From positions 1-40,169 of the forward strand of contig JASLKC010000004.1 in the NCBI GenBank assembly GCA_030747785.1: 40,169 nucleotides of DNA. Reading direction: 5' to 3'. Source of the stretch: Candidatus Poseidoniaceae archaeon (GTDB lineage: Archaea; Thermoplasmatota; Poseidoniia; Poseidoniales; Poseidoniaceae). A program made the translations under genes and the position numbers. The notes beneath the pieces are model-generated. The model worked only from the letters and a program-made list of their open reading frames with translations, was not told where the DNA came from and did not search any database. This document shows positions 14,917-22,913 of this stretch, in pieces (positions within the stretch are counted from its first letter, which is position 1; every line of letters begins with the position of its first letter).

Positions 14917-15219
14917 TCAGCCAAAGAGAGATCCAAGTCCCTCAAAGCCGCCTGCTTCTTCCTCTTCCTCTTCAGCTTCTTCAGCAGCGGGTGCCTCGGA
15001 TGCAGAAGCGGCAGCGGCAGCAGGTGCTGCAGCAGCGGGGGCAGCAACAGCGGTAGCCATTGCTTCAGCTATGTCAACACCGCTTAGTGAGGCTACTAGA
15101 GCCTTCACACGGGCAGAGTCAGCCTTTACACCAGCAGCCTTTAGGACTGCAGTGACAGCTTTGTCGTCGATCTCAGTTTCGGCAGAATGCAAAAGCATTG
15201 CAGCGTATACGTACTCCAT
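14917..15219 (-). CDS. rpl12: Ribosomal protein L12 (archaeal P1/P2-type stalk protein)
   Basis: 100 residues with the archaeal/eukaryotic P1 layout: an N-terminal helical dimerisation and P0-binding domain ([18 protein letters not shown]), an Ala-rich hinge, an acidic Glu run, and the conserved C-terminal tail ending [11 protein letters not shown], which contacts translational GTPases. It forms the ribosomal stalk with P0. Preceded by TGAGGTGAAAAAATATG, a strong Shine-Dalgarno, 24 bp after rpl10. The final residues FEGLGSLFG nearly repeat the end of L10 (FDGLGSLFG), as expected because P0 and P1 share this tail. Last gene of the secE-spt5-rpl11-rpl1-rpl10-rpl12 cluster. Confidence 0.97.
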
Positions 15220-15243: not shown

Positions 15244-16260
15244 TTAACCGAATAAGGACCCAAGGCCGTCGAAACTGCCTTCTTCCTCTTCTTCCTCTTC
15301 TTCCTCCTCGGCCTCGGCTGGGGCCTCGTCGGTGCTCGATGCTTCAACAGTTGCAGATTCTGCAGCGGAAGCGGCTGCACCCAAGAGTTGGGTGAGCTCT
15401 TCATCGAGAGCGTCACCAGACAAAGACCCTGCAACGCCCATGGCGCCACGGTGTGCTTGTCCGATGAAGTGCGGCAGAGTGTCGGGTGTGACAATTGCCG
15501 CCTCCAATGCCAATGCCAGAGCTTCGCCGCTGGCCTTGGACAGGAGTGTTGGTATGGTCTCGCTGGTGAACCAGCGGATATTGCATGCAAGGTTGAAAGA
15601 ACCTGCAGCATAACTGATGAGGTCGGTTTCGAACTTCTTGTAATCGATATCGAGTGTCTTTGGCTCAAATCTGACGCCATCCTCTAGGGTGCCGCACAAA
15701 CGTAGACCAGTAACGATTGGATTGATTCCAATCTTAGAGAGCATCAATCCCATATCGCCTTCAAAGACTTCGCCCTCTTTGAGAACGGTAGTCTCTTTCT
15801 GAATCCGGACGGAACCGCCCATGATCTTAGCTGGAATTCCTACGGAGTTCAATTCTCCAACAATTGGACCAGGGGCCATACCGGTGTCCATCTTCTCAAC
15901 GACAATGTCGTGTGGTGCAATGTCACCAGGCTTTGCAGCACGTCCGGCCTCAGTCTTCTGTAATTCAGAGAATACTTGGAAGGAATCCAAATCTGATTGA
16001 ACCAATGCGGGCTGAACTGCACCGTCATATAGAGCCTCAAGGTCAGCGAAATCTCGACCATTTGCTTCCCATGCCAATTTCATCAGGCGCTTCTTTGCGA
16101 CTAATATGCTCATCTTGTCATAAAGACCACTGCGCATTCCAATCATTGCGCCTGCTGGAACACCGTGAATATCGATGACAGCGATGGTCCCGCCACTCTC
16201 TAGCATTGAAGAGAGGGTGGACACTGTGTCCTTCTTCCAGGATGCTACCTTAGGAATCAA
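15244..16260 (-). CDS. rpl10: Ribosomal protein L10 (P0)
   Basis: 338 residues, the usual length for archaeal P0. The N-terminus MIPKVASWKKDTVSTLSSML fits the family (..aeWKk.ev..L), followed by the rRNA-binding domain with MRSGLYDKMSILVAKKRLMKLA, the insertion domain, C-terminal helices that dock L12 dimers, and an acidic tail ending SFDGLGSLFG. It starts with TTG, which overlaps the rpl1 stop codon by four bases (TTGA). The Shine-Dalgarno GAGGTGATT lies within the last codons of rpl1, so translation is probably coupled. Assembles with L11 and L12 at the GTPase-associated centre. Confidence 0.96.
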   Translation of the reverse strand: MIPKVASWKKDTVSTLSSMLESGGTIAVIDIHGVPAGAMIGMRSGLYDKMSILVAKKRLMKLAWEANGRDFADLEALYDGAVQPALVQSDLDSFQVFSELQKTEAGRAAKPGDIAPHDIVVEKMDTGMAPGPIVGELNSVGIPAKIMGGSVRIQKETTVLKEGEVFEGDMGLMLSKIGINPIVTGLRLCGTLEDGVRFEPKTLDIDYKKFETDLISYAAGSFNLACNIRWFTSETIPTLLSKASGEALALALEAAIVTPDTLPHFIGQAHRGAMGVAGSLSGDALDEELTQLLGAAASAAESATVEASSTDEAPAEAEEEEEEEEEEGSFDGLGSLFG

Positions 16261-16901
16261 TTAATCACCTCAATTCTGGTTGCTGGACCCATTGTGGTCT
16301 TAACGTAAAGTGAACGAATGTTTCCAATTCCACGCTCTAACTTGGAAGTGACACGATTGTACACTTCCATAGCGTTCTTCAATAATTCTTCATGAGATTG
16401 GGAAAGTGTTCCGAATGAAGCCTGGAAGGTGACCTTGTCACGTGACTTCACAACGGTAGTTGATTGAAGTCCAGATGCGATGACTGCTGGGTCAACAACT
16501 GGTGGTACAGGACGAGGCATCTTTCCACGAGGACCGAGGATGACACCGAGGTAACGTCCAATAAGTCCCATGTGTGGTACTTCAGCGAGGAAGAAATCAT
16601 AGGAATTTGCCAATTTCTTTGCTTGACCCTTGGATTTGCCCAACTCTTCAATCTCTGATGGATCGATGACGTGTATTCCTGCTTTCTTTGCCTTTTTTGC
16701 AGCATCGGAACCAGCGAACATTGCGACCTTGATACTGCGGCCACGGCCAGAAGGAAGACGAATCTCCTCCTGAATACGGTTGTTTGGGTTCTTGAGGTCG
16801 ACATCCTTGATTGTGAACGAGATGTCCATAGATTCGACAAACTTGCGCTCTGGCGCACCTTCGATGGCGCTCCTGATTGCTTCTGAGATTTTTTCTTCCA
16901 T
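16257..16901 (-). CDS. rpl1: Ribosomal protein L1
   Basis: About 214 residues. Binds the L1 stalk of 23S rRNA and guides release of deacylated tRNA. Recognisable parts are the SIKVAMFAGSDAAKKAKKAG region, FFLAEVPHMGLIGRYLGVILGPRGKMPRPVPP (the universally conserved L1 signature) and the C-terminal KTTMGPATRIEVI. The ATG at 16901 is preferred over GTG at 16910 because GGGGTGG lies at the right distance upstream. Archaeal L1 represses its own mRNA in known cases; a G/C-rich hairpin 20 bases upstream of this start may be the site (separate entry). The last codons contain the Shine-Dalgarno for rpl10. Confidence 0.96.
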   Translation of the reverse strand: MEEKISEAIRSAIEGAPERKFVESMDISFTIKDVDLKNPNNRIQEEIRLPSGRGRSIKVAMFAGSDAAKKAKKAGIHVIDPSEIEELGKSKGQAKKLANSYDFFLAEVPHMGLIGRYLGVILGPRGKMPRPVPPVVDPAVIASGLQSTTVVKSRDKVTFQASFGTLSQSHEELLKNAMEVYNRVTSKLERGIGNIRSLYVKTTMGPATRIEVIN

Positions 16902-16921
16902 TTTTTCCACCCCTTCGGTCG

Positions 16922-16960: not shown

Positions 16961-17242
16961 TCAAGCAAAACGTGTGTCCCATTCTCCTTTCTCGATTGTA
17001 GTCAGTGCATCCTTAGCCCAGAGTCCATCGATTTTCACACGCATTGCGACACAAGTGCCGATGACCTCACGGGTCTGCGCCTTCAGATCGTTTCCGGTCA
17101 AGTGGCCTTCTTTCGCCTTCTGGCGAGCGACGTCCATTGCCTTCTCGAGACTCAAGTCCTCGGTTGCGGCATCCAACGAACCATTGCACTTCTTGACACC
17201 TAGAGCCTTCTTGATGAGCTCGCTGGTCCAGGGCTTTGGCAT
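16961..17242 (-). CDS. rpl11: Ribosomal protein L11, C-terminal domain only
   Basis: 93 residues instead of the usual ~140-165. It aligns with the C-terminal rRNA-binding domain of L11: TSELIKKALGVKK (family: tsaLIKKelG), LSLEKAMDVARQKAKEGHLTGNDLKAQTREVIGTCVAMRVKIDG and a short acidic end. The whole N-terminal domain, including the PGPPLGPxLG loop, is absent. The start looks genuine: AGAGGTG lies at the right distance before the ATG, the upstream 106 bp contain a TATA-like box and no coding remnant, and the next gene upstream is intact spt5. So this appears to be a domain loss, not a frameshift. Position in the rpl11-rpl1-rpl10-rpl12 cluster supports the identity. Confidence 0.88.
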   Translation of the reverse strand: MPKPWTSELIKKALGVKKCNGSLDAATEDLSLEKAMDVARQKAKEGHLTGNDLKAQTREVIGTCVAMRVKIDGLWAKDALTTIEKGEWDTRFA

Positions 17243-17296
17243 GATTGAACACCTCTGACGCTCACGGACGTGAGCAAGTCGCCGACTAAACCCCCC

Positions 17297-17304
17297 TATT
17301 TAAT
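17297..17304 (-). promoter_or_regulatory. TATA-like box for the rpl11-rpl1-rpl10-rpl12 operon
   Basis: Minus-strand ATTAAATA lies 55 bp upstream of the rpl11 ATG in a space otherwise rich in G+C. Transcription starting ~25 bp downstream would give a leader of ~30 bases carrying AGAGGTG. Confidence 0.5.
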
Positions 17305-17348
17305 CGCGCCGTGTGGCAACAATGGGGTAATCAGGGCACCTCTCTGTA

Positions 17349-18266
17349 TCACTCGACGCGCTCGATGACTCGAACGTGATCTCCACGCATCTTCAAGGTC
17401 ATTGGAATAGGCTGTTCGTACAGCTCCATGCTGACCTCTTCTTTGGTTTCTGCAACGCTGGTAACGCGTGCTTTCTCACCCTTGAATGCACCAGTGACGA
17501 TTTCGACAATACAACCAACCTCGATTCCGCTGGTAACAGCCTTTGGCTCGAGATATGGTAGAATGTCTTTGAGAGGTGCTTCACCTGGAAGAACGGTCTT
17601 TGCGTTCTTCAGTGGAGTCTGGTTTAGTCCACGGCGTGCTTTCGGGTCACGGCCACCGGAGCGACCGATCAACTTCTCAACGTGGTGGAGAGCACTTGAC
17701 TCAACCATCACATATCCACGCATGCCCGTTGGGTGGAGGATTCCAAAGATTTCATCTTGAATGGATGAAAGTGAACCACTACCCATTAGGCGAGCTTGCA
17801 TTTCATCAGCGACACGCTTCTCAGAACCGATTGCGGTTTTGACGATGAAAAGGTAAGCGGAAACGGAACCGTACATTTCACGTACGATTTTCTCACTACC
17901 TTCTTGTTCGAGGTCTGCGAAAACGCAGTTGTGATTCTGAATGTCTCCGGGGTCTACCCAAACGCTCTCGATATAGCGACCGGAAGGTGTGACTTCCTTA
18001 GAGGAAGATACAACGAGAATGGGTCGGATATCCTGCATTACATTGCTAGAACTGATAACACCGAGTGCCGGTCCAGATCGAACATAGGTCAAATCCTCTG
18101 TAGGAATACCTGTGCACTCTGCGACACGAGCGATTATTTCCTCTGGTTCTTCGCCAATACCGTATACTCCATCCCAAAGGGCTGGAGAATCTGCATCGGA
18201 CTTTGAGCGGCGCAAAAGGAGAAGTTCTTCCTCGTGTCTAACAAATGCGATAAATGCGTCTGCCAT
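17349..18266 (-). CDS. spt5: Transcription elongation factor Spt5/NusG with N-terminal Nudix-like domain
   Basis: 305 residues, about twice the length of a normal archaeal Spt5. Residues ~137-235 are the NGN domain (YLFIVKTAIGSEKRVADEMQ, ILHPTGMRGYVMVES, LPGEAPLKDILPYLEP) and ~245-303 the KOW domain (GCIVEIVTGAFKGEKARVT, MRGDHVRVIE). These bind Spt4 and the RNA polymerase clamp for processivity. Residues 1-~125 resemble a Nudix fold: strand FIAFVRHEEELLLLRR, WDGVYGIGEEPEE, helix IIARVAECTGI, and ESVWVDPGDI. The Nudix box lacks key Glu residues (ARVAECTGI against RExxEExGx), so it is probably not catalytic. The start has GAGGTGG overlapping the secE stop. An internal Met131 could start a conventional Spt5 but lacks a ribosome-binding site. 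Confidence 0.92.
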   Translation of the reverse strand: MADAFIAFVRHEEELLLLRRSKSDADSPALWDGVYGIGEEPEEIIARVAECTGIPTEDLTYVRSGPALGVISSSNVMQDIRPILVVSSSKEVTPSGRYIESVWVDPGDIQNHNCVFADLEQEGSEKIVREMYGSVSAYLFIVKTAIGSEKRVADEMQARLMGSGSLSSIQDEIFGILHPTGMRGYVMVESSALHHVEKLIGRSGGRDPKARRGLNQTPLKNAKTVLPGEAPLKDILPYLEPKAVTSGIEVGCIVEIVTGAFKGEKARVTSVAETKEEVSMELYEQPIPMTLKMRGDHVRVIERVE

Positions 18267-22829: not shown

Positions 22830-22913
22830 TGCGGGGGGCAGGATTCGAACCTGCGAATCAATAAGAAATGGGACCTAAACCCACCGCCGTTGACCAAGCT
22901 GGGCGACCCCCGC
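22830..22913 (-). tRNA. tRNA-Leu (anticodon UAG)
   Basis: Cloverleaf read on the minus strand: acceptor GCGGGGG pairs with CCCCCGC; D-arm GCC/GGC with the AGCTTGGTCAA loop; anticodon stem GTGGG/CCCAT with loop TTTAGGT, giving UAG (plus-strand positions 22875-22877); a variable region of ~13 bases; T-arm GCAGG TTCGAAT CCTGC; discriminator A at 22830. It decodes CUA and, by wobble, other CUN codons. The long variable region is consistent with a class II Leu tRNA. The 3' CCA is not encoded (next bases CCT). No intron is seen. Confidence 0.95.

Follow-up and report, generated by a model that had tools for sequence, protein, structure and literature searches.

A ribosomal protein uL11 reduced to its C-terminal domain across the marine archaeal order Poseidoniales

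The rpl11 locus and its 93-residue product

The window (the whole stretch of DNA analysed, 40,169 nt from a Candidatus Poseidoniaceae archaeon) carries rpl11 on its minus strand at 16961–17242. This open reading frame encodes a ribosomal protein uL11 of 93 aa that begins at the inter-domain linker (MPKPWTSELIKKALG) and consists of the rRNA-binding C-terminal domain (CTD) alone, as judged from Pfam, from PDB and NCBIfam alignments, and from relatives. The upstream neighbour on the same strand is spt5 (17349–18266), a transcription elongation factor gene identified by domain matches, whose product is extended at its N-terminus by about 139 aa. Downstream, also on the minus strand, lie rpl1 (16257–16910) and rpl12, encoding a P1-type stalk protein (14917–15219), each assigned by a domain match, and between them rpl10 (15244–16260), which by domain match and alignment encodes a full-length uL10 colinear with archaeal uL10. 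The initial annotation had described this operon context correctly. An order with spt5 before and rpl1-rpl10-rpl12 after is usual for uL11 but not strictly defining. Rfam gave a single match in the window, a tRNA gene (22830–22913, minus strand).

The sole Pfam match of the 93-aa protein was PF00298, the L11 RNA-binding domain, with residues 3–70 aligned to profile positions 2–68 of 69 (E = 6.1e-10; 39.8 bits against a cut-off of 21.4). No match to PF03946 (L11_N) was found in it up to E = 0.1. It aligned with residues 71–158 of 4v6u chain BH and residues 68–156 of 2otj chain I, both archaeal uL11 proteins of known structure, and with positions 71–158 of 164 in NF002232, the equivalog model for full-length archaeal L11. 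The initial reading of a product of some 93 residues comprising the CTD only was thus borne out by all three kinds of alignment. The protein belongs to uL11 by its CTD, lacks the N-terminal domain with its factor-facing GPLG motif, and falls outside the full-length archaeal equivalog: it scored 61.4 bits on NF002232, under the cut-off of 162, whereas a two-domain protein from family f3 (introduced below) scored 181.1. Domain loss of this kind could pass unnoticed, as a short uL11 clears the Pfam cut-off for the CTD while scoring 61 against 162 on the full-length model.

With dN/dS of 0.06–0.15 over 21 pairs of close relatives (7 sequences), the short gene evolves under purifying selection. An AlphaFold2 model built on 16 natural sequences, mostly from family f1, which corresponds to Candidatus Poseidoniaceae, had a mean pLDDT of 79.9, with values of 61–66 across the first 30 residues. 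Its best archaeal fold matches were uL11 CTDs (TM to query 0.74 for 4v9f_I and 0.75 for 5d8h_C). Sequence and model together suggest that the CTD most likely retains its rRNA-clamping role.

A 106-nt spacer (17243–17348, minus strand) separates rpl11 from the stop codon of spt5. It contains a Shine-Dalgarno-like GAGGTG 7 nt 5' of the ATG (17250–17255) and a promoter-like block (17281–17304) made up of the TATA-like ATTAAATA (17304–17297), 10 nt, and GTCGGC (17286–17281), which does not correspond to any standard archaeal promoter element known to us. The leader, the Shine-Dalgarno sequence and the TATA-like box had all been noted initially, and such features proved common to relatives. We submitted 93 rpl11 loci, some of them the same genome twice, of which 85 were used for TATA and Shine-Dalgarno counts and 91 for the block; the 91 exclude L149, whose frame seems broken near the start, and L150, which lacks an ATG there. 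Using expressions written after the sequences had been inspected, we found AAATA-N10-GTCSS (17281–17301 in the window), at exactly 10-nt spacing, upstream of 88 of the 91 short rpl11 starts, and a TATA-like box 45–75 nt 5' of the start in 82 of 85 (mean 1.57 and maximum 6 in 200 mononucleotide shuffles). The alignment comprised 89 promoter segments, 55 of them unique, with close relatives counted apart. A Shine-Dalgarno-like motif from a broad set, counted without a control, was present in 81 of 85 relatives. Of the 31 order loci, 28 contained the whole block, with 30 occurrences in 341 kb, versus one of nine f3 loci (once in 94 kb). The block presumably acts as a promoter.

An alignment of uL11 across Poseidoniales, which the initial annotation had proposed, gave the same picture throughout: all 31 proteins (the window and L067–L096) were short, with the ATG at the same linker site. 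N-termini read MPKPWT, MPQPWT, MSRPWT or MSDNWT in f1, and MSARNETPH, MSDRNETPH, MSDRDETPH or MSDNWT in f2, presumably Candidatus Thalassarchaeaceae. In all 31 loci the open frame 5' of the ATG ran for only 0–51 codons before an in-frame stop, too short for the missing domain of about 66 residues. The distance from spt5 to rpl11 was 57–154 nt in the 22 of 31 rows with a placed start (L075, L077, L079, L084, L086, L095, L096 and two loci lacking spt5 are omitted). The two genes were adjacent in 29 of the 31 loci; in L091 and L094 a divergent open frame stood upstream in place of spt5, so rpl11 would there need its own transcript start. The short rpl11 is thus a real gene with its own start, under selection and presumably expressed.

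Distribution of the two uL11 domains

The genome from which the window derives (1.83 Mb in 59 contigs, an estimated 86% complete) gave no match to PF03946 in six frames at that completeness. It holds one PF00298 match, so the second rpl11 that the initial annotation had asked after is not present there. With 60 relatives added, L11_N was found in none of 61 genomes and the CTD in 53. Over the whole order, L11_N was detected in one of 318 genomes (E 0.001) and in none of the 35 genomes at 90% completeness or more, and the CTD in 262 of 318 (261 above the family cut-off) and in 33 of the 35 that were at least 90% complete. Neither domain was found in 56 genomes, and 261, including the window's own, had the CTD without L11_N. 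The stable domain loss proposed from this single locus is therefore strongly supported, and it is order-wide rather than local.

Could the short gene be an artefact of assembly or binning, or a normal gene with a misplaced start? The window genome is fragmented and incomplete, which would favour an artefact, but the CTD occurs without L11_N in those 261 order genomes and the short gene recurs in independent assemblies, including a 2.06-Mb single-contig genome (G036). Named records with a relative of the protein include CM001443.1, a chromosome record of 2,064,136 bases and so as long as the G036 contig, and the isolates AG-461-G23, AH-287-P07 and AH-273-O19, whose names we take to denote single-cell assemblies. 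A misplaced start is disfavoured by the in-frame stop close upstream of the ATG in every aligned locus and by the conserved promoter-like block. We therefore give this explanation practically no credence.

It is also very unlikely that a second gene, diverged beyond the reach of the profile, still supplies the N-terminal domain. Profile searches can miss extremely divergent proteins or unrelated functional equivalents, most Poseidoniales genomes are incomplete, and two members of the phylum scored only weakly with PF03946 (E = 4.2e-11 and 1.2e-8). Against this, the profile matched in each of the 14 control genomes, which include bacteria. Among the f3 matches listed it scored 71–89 bits, bar one partial match of 51.8, and its best score in the phylum was 94.5. 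At E 0.001 it had no match in any but one of the 318 order members, so that a separate gene for the domain, another possibility raised at the outset, was seen neither in the window's own genome nor in the rest of those 317.

Outside the order, the domain is the rule. In a sample of the class, L11_N was present in 18 of 145 genomes, all of them from family f3, which belongs to another order and presumably represents MGIII, the sister order. In a sample of the phylum it was present in 247 of 389 genomes: none of 126 order members and 247 of 263 others, a count of the presence of L11_N and not of the full length of every gene. The 16 outside genomes without it include one from f3, so a missing L11_N is not unique to Poseidoniales among incomplete genomes. 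Among the 172 genomes outside the order that are at least 90% complete, 170 had the domain, and the two misses (G410 and G502) have congeners that possess it. This survey covers one phylum and 14 control genomes, and we do not claim uniqueness beyond it.

The f3 loci show what the Poseidoniales lack. In all nine (L097–L105), rpl11 encodes both domains in 156 aa and starts within 2 nt of the spt5 stop or overlaps it (the L105 row contains Ns); about 200 nt coding for the N-terminal domain sit where the order has its spacer. GPPLGP is present in all nine f3 proteins, whereas GPLG is absent from the 31 order proteins and from the open frames preceding their ATG. The CTDs differ too: CNG or FNG in 31 of 31 order proteins against GSG in 9 of 9 from f3, and SMR or AMR against SMG in the same sets. 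We did not find rpl1, rpl10 or rpl12 beside the full-length rpl11 in the nine f3 stretches; the rpl11-rpl1-rpl10-rpl12 operon seems to be split in f3, and this gene order is thus not required for uL11.

The neighbouring Spt5 also differs between the groups. Its N-terminal extension gave a weak Nudix match, below the cut-off, and stop-to-stop frames spanned 288–318 aa in 29 order loci versus 171–265 aa in 10 f3-like loci, so the extension looks order-wide.

The single order genome with L11_N, G196, carries a full-length rpl11 (L106) on an 8.2-kb contig (C36). The first 2,890 bases of this contig matched three f3 loci at 85–88% and had no counterpart among the 30 order loci compared; for the remainder, no match emerged among any of the loci used. 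Elsewhere in the G196 genome there is a further CTD match, a weaker one, which backs the reading that the contig is likely contamination.

The remainder of the GTPase-associated centre

We recovered 23S rRNA from four of six genomes tried with the Rfam archaeal 23S model. The factor-site core was identical in three; the fourth (G046) had two substitutions, including one in the first loop. The loops near positions 1067 and 1095 (E. coli numbering, here and below) were otherwise kept in all four, and A1067 and A1095 were present in each. A pattern search gave matches in 69 of 389 genomes, 27 of 126 order members among them, but the pattern itself fixes much of the loops, so their conservation is read from the four Rfam matches only. 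For f3, no 23S match was obtained in one genome with Rfam or in eight with the pattern.

Two rRNA features were considered and set aside. A U-A pair at 1091–1100, as a sign of rRNA remodelling, also occurred in 7 of 42 outgroup matches, six of them with L11_N. A G at 1083 was found in 26 of 27 order matches and in one of 42 others (G580, which keeps L11_N); it is a marker only.

Among the proteins, the uL10 of the window aligns end to end with archaeal uL10 and has no added domain, L12 matches its family, and EF-2 is canonical in the window's own genome. EF-2 was sought in 27 genomes, and 22 full-length proteins were used (6 from f3 and 16 from order members), together with 28 of 30 outgroup sequences; L271 was dropped as interrupted and L275 as partial. 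The order showed five departures among 175 positions conserved outside it. In L271 (G563:C14:77838-80933) the EF-2 match consists of two segments, separated by about 900 nt, in a single open frame of 1053 aa, an intein-like arrangement.

A truly remodelled centre, with EF-2 domain V altered to match the loss, might be suspected from the proportion of f3-conserved EF-2 positions that vary in the order, which is 0.38 in domain V against 0.16–0.27 in the other domains (domain limits are approximate). Domain V is also relatively fast within the order, its value being reached by one of 160 random 100-column sets. However, it is equally fast in f3 (1 of 160), which keeps the uL11 domain; the rate ratio between the two clades is ordinary, reached by 86 of 160 random sets; and in domain V the order shows one departure among 17 positions conserved outside. 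EF-2 co-evolution specific to the loss was therefore rejected, since a fast domain V is common to f3 with its full uL11, and we regard such a remodelled centre as quite improbable.

Thus, the components checked (23S factor-site loops, uL10, L12 and EF-2) look ordinary, and the remodelled GTPase-associated centre of the initial annotation is not supported in that wording. A simplified centre fits better, with EF-2 as the only factor covered.

Origin of the short uL11 and comparison with known systems

uL11 is a two-domain protein whose N-terminal domain contacts translation factors, according to the available text of PMC9122527, and is a target of thiostrepton in bacteria (PMC3347575 and PMC9122527). 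In Poseidoniales the domain is missing, so its factor contacts cannot exist there. The common ancestor of the order very probably lost it, leaving a short gene with its own promoter and ribosome-binding site and a functional CTD; a single loss on the Poseidoniales stem is the most likely course. After the loss, a promoter and ribosome-binding site would have arisen where the N-terminal domain had been encoded, with translation initiating at the linker preceding the CTD. Homology and the predicted fold suggest that the remaining CTD binds the 58-nt GTPase-associated rRNA and helps uL10 to hold the stalk base. Factor recruitment would then rely on uL10, the tails of L12/P1 and rRNA loops left bare, with no mobile domain of the sort that contacts factors elsewhere. 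Translation would depend on these parts and on what else the ribosome offers, or else on some substitute.

A substitute of this kind, an unrelated order-specific protein that occupies the vacated site on the ribosome, has an argument in its favour. In vitro, yeast ribosomes with changes to the GPLG motif retain only 9–32% of poly-Phe synthesis (PMC9122527), so total loss should need compensation, and a cost-free loss would be surprising. Yet uL10 in the window has no added domain, and no replacement candidate came up in a search that was not systematic; we consider such a replacement doubtful. We think it probable instead that these abundant marine archaea have, for as long as the order has existed, made protein with no uL11 N-terminal domain and with nothing in its place, the rRNA loops, uL10, L12 and EF-2 otherwise unchanged, in which case the switch would be dispensable in nature.

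An entire order of marine archaea appears to have dispensed with a part regarded as standard in ribosomes, and a natural lineage lacking it offers a ready comparison for what the uL11 N-terminal domain contributes. Poseidoniales ribosomes are also predicted to be insensitive to thiostrepton-type drugs, a likely consequence of lacking the target domain. We found no earlier report of uL11 N-terminal domain loss in the open-licence literature, searched by title or abstract start. The available main text of PMC6461757, which names the order, contains neither 'L11' nor 'ribosomal protein', and in the available text of PMC10989744 L11 and Poseidoniales occur in the reference list only.

The CTD of Poseidoniales uL11 is alike in sequence and predicted fold to that of full-length archaeal uL11 from H. 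marismortui (4v9f chain I) and M. jannaschii (5d8h chain C). Full-length archaeal uL11 is described with an N-terminal domain and GPLG (PMC9122527, in the text available), whereas Poseidoniales lack both. The isolated CTD L11-C76 (1fow) is nearly the same piece of protein; L11-C76 is a laboratory construct, whereas the CTD-only protein is natural and, as far as found, the sole form in Poseidoniales. Bacterial relC-type strains are uL11-deficient mutants. Such mutants miss the whole protein, whereas Poseidoniales keep the CTD, in natural and widespread lineages. Their ribosomes function in the absence of the uL11 N-terminal domain, as those of Poseidoniales would, although yeast deprived of both RPL12 genes grows and translates poorly (PMC9122527).
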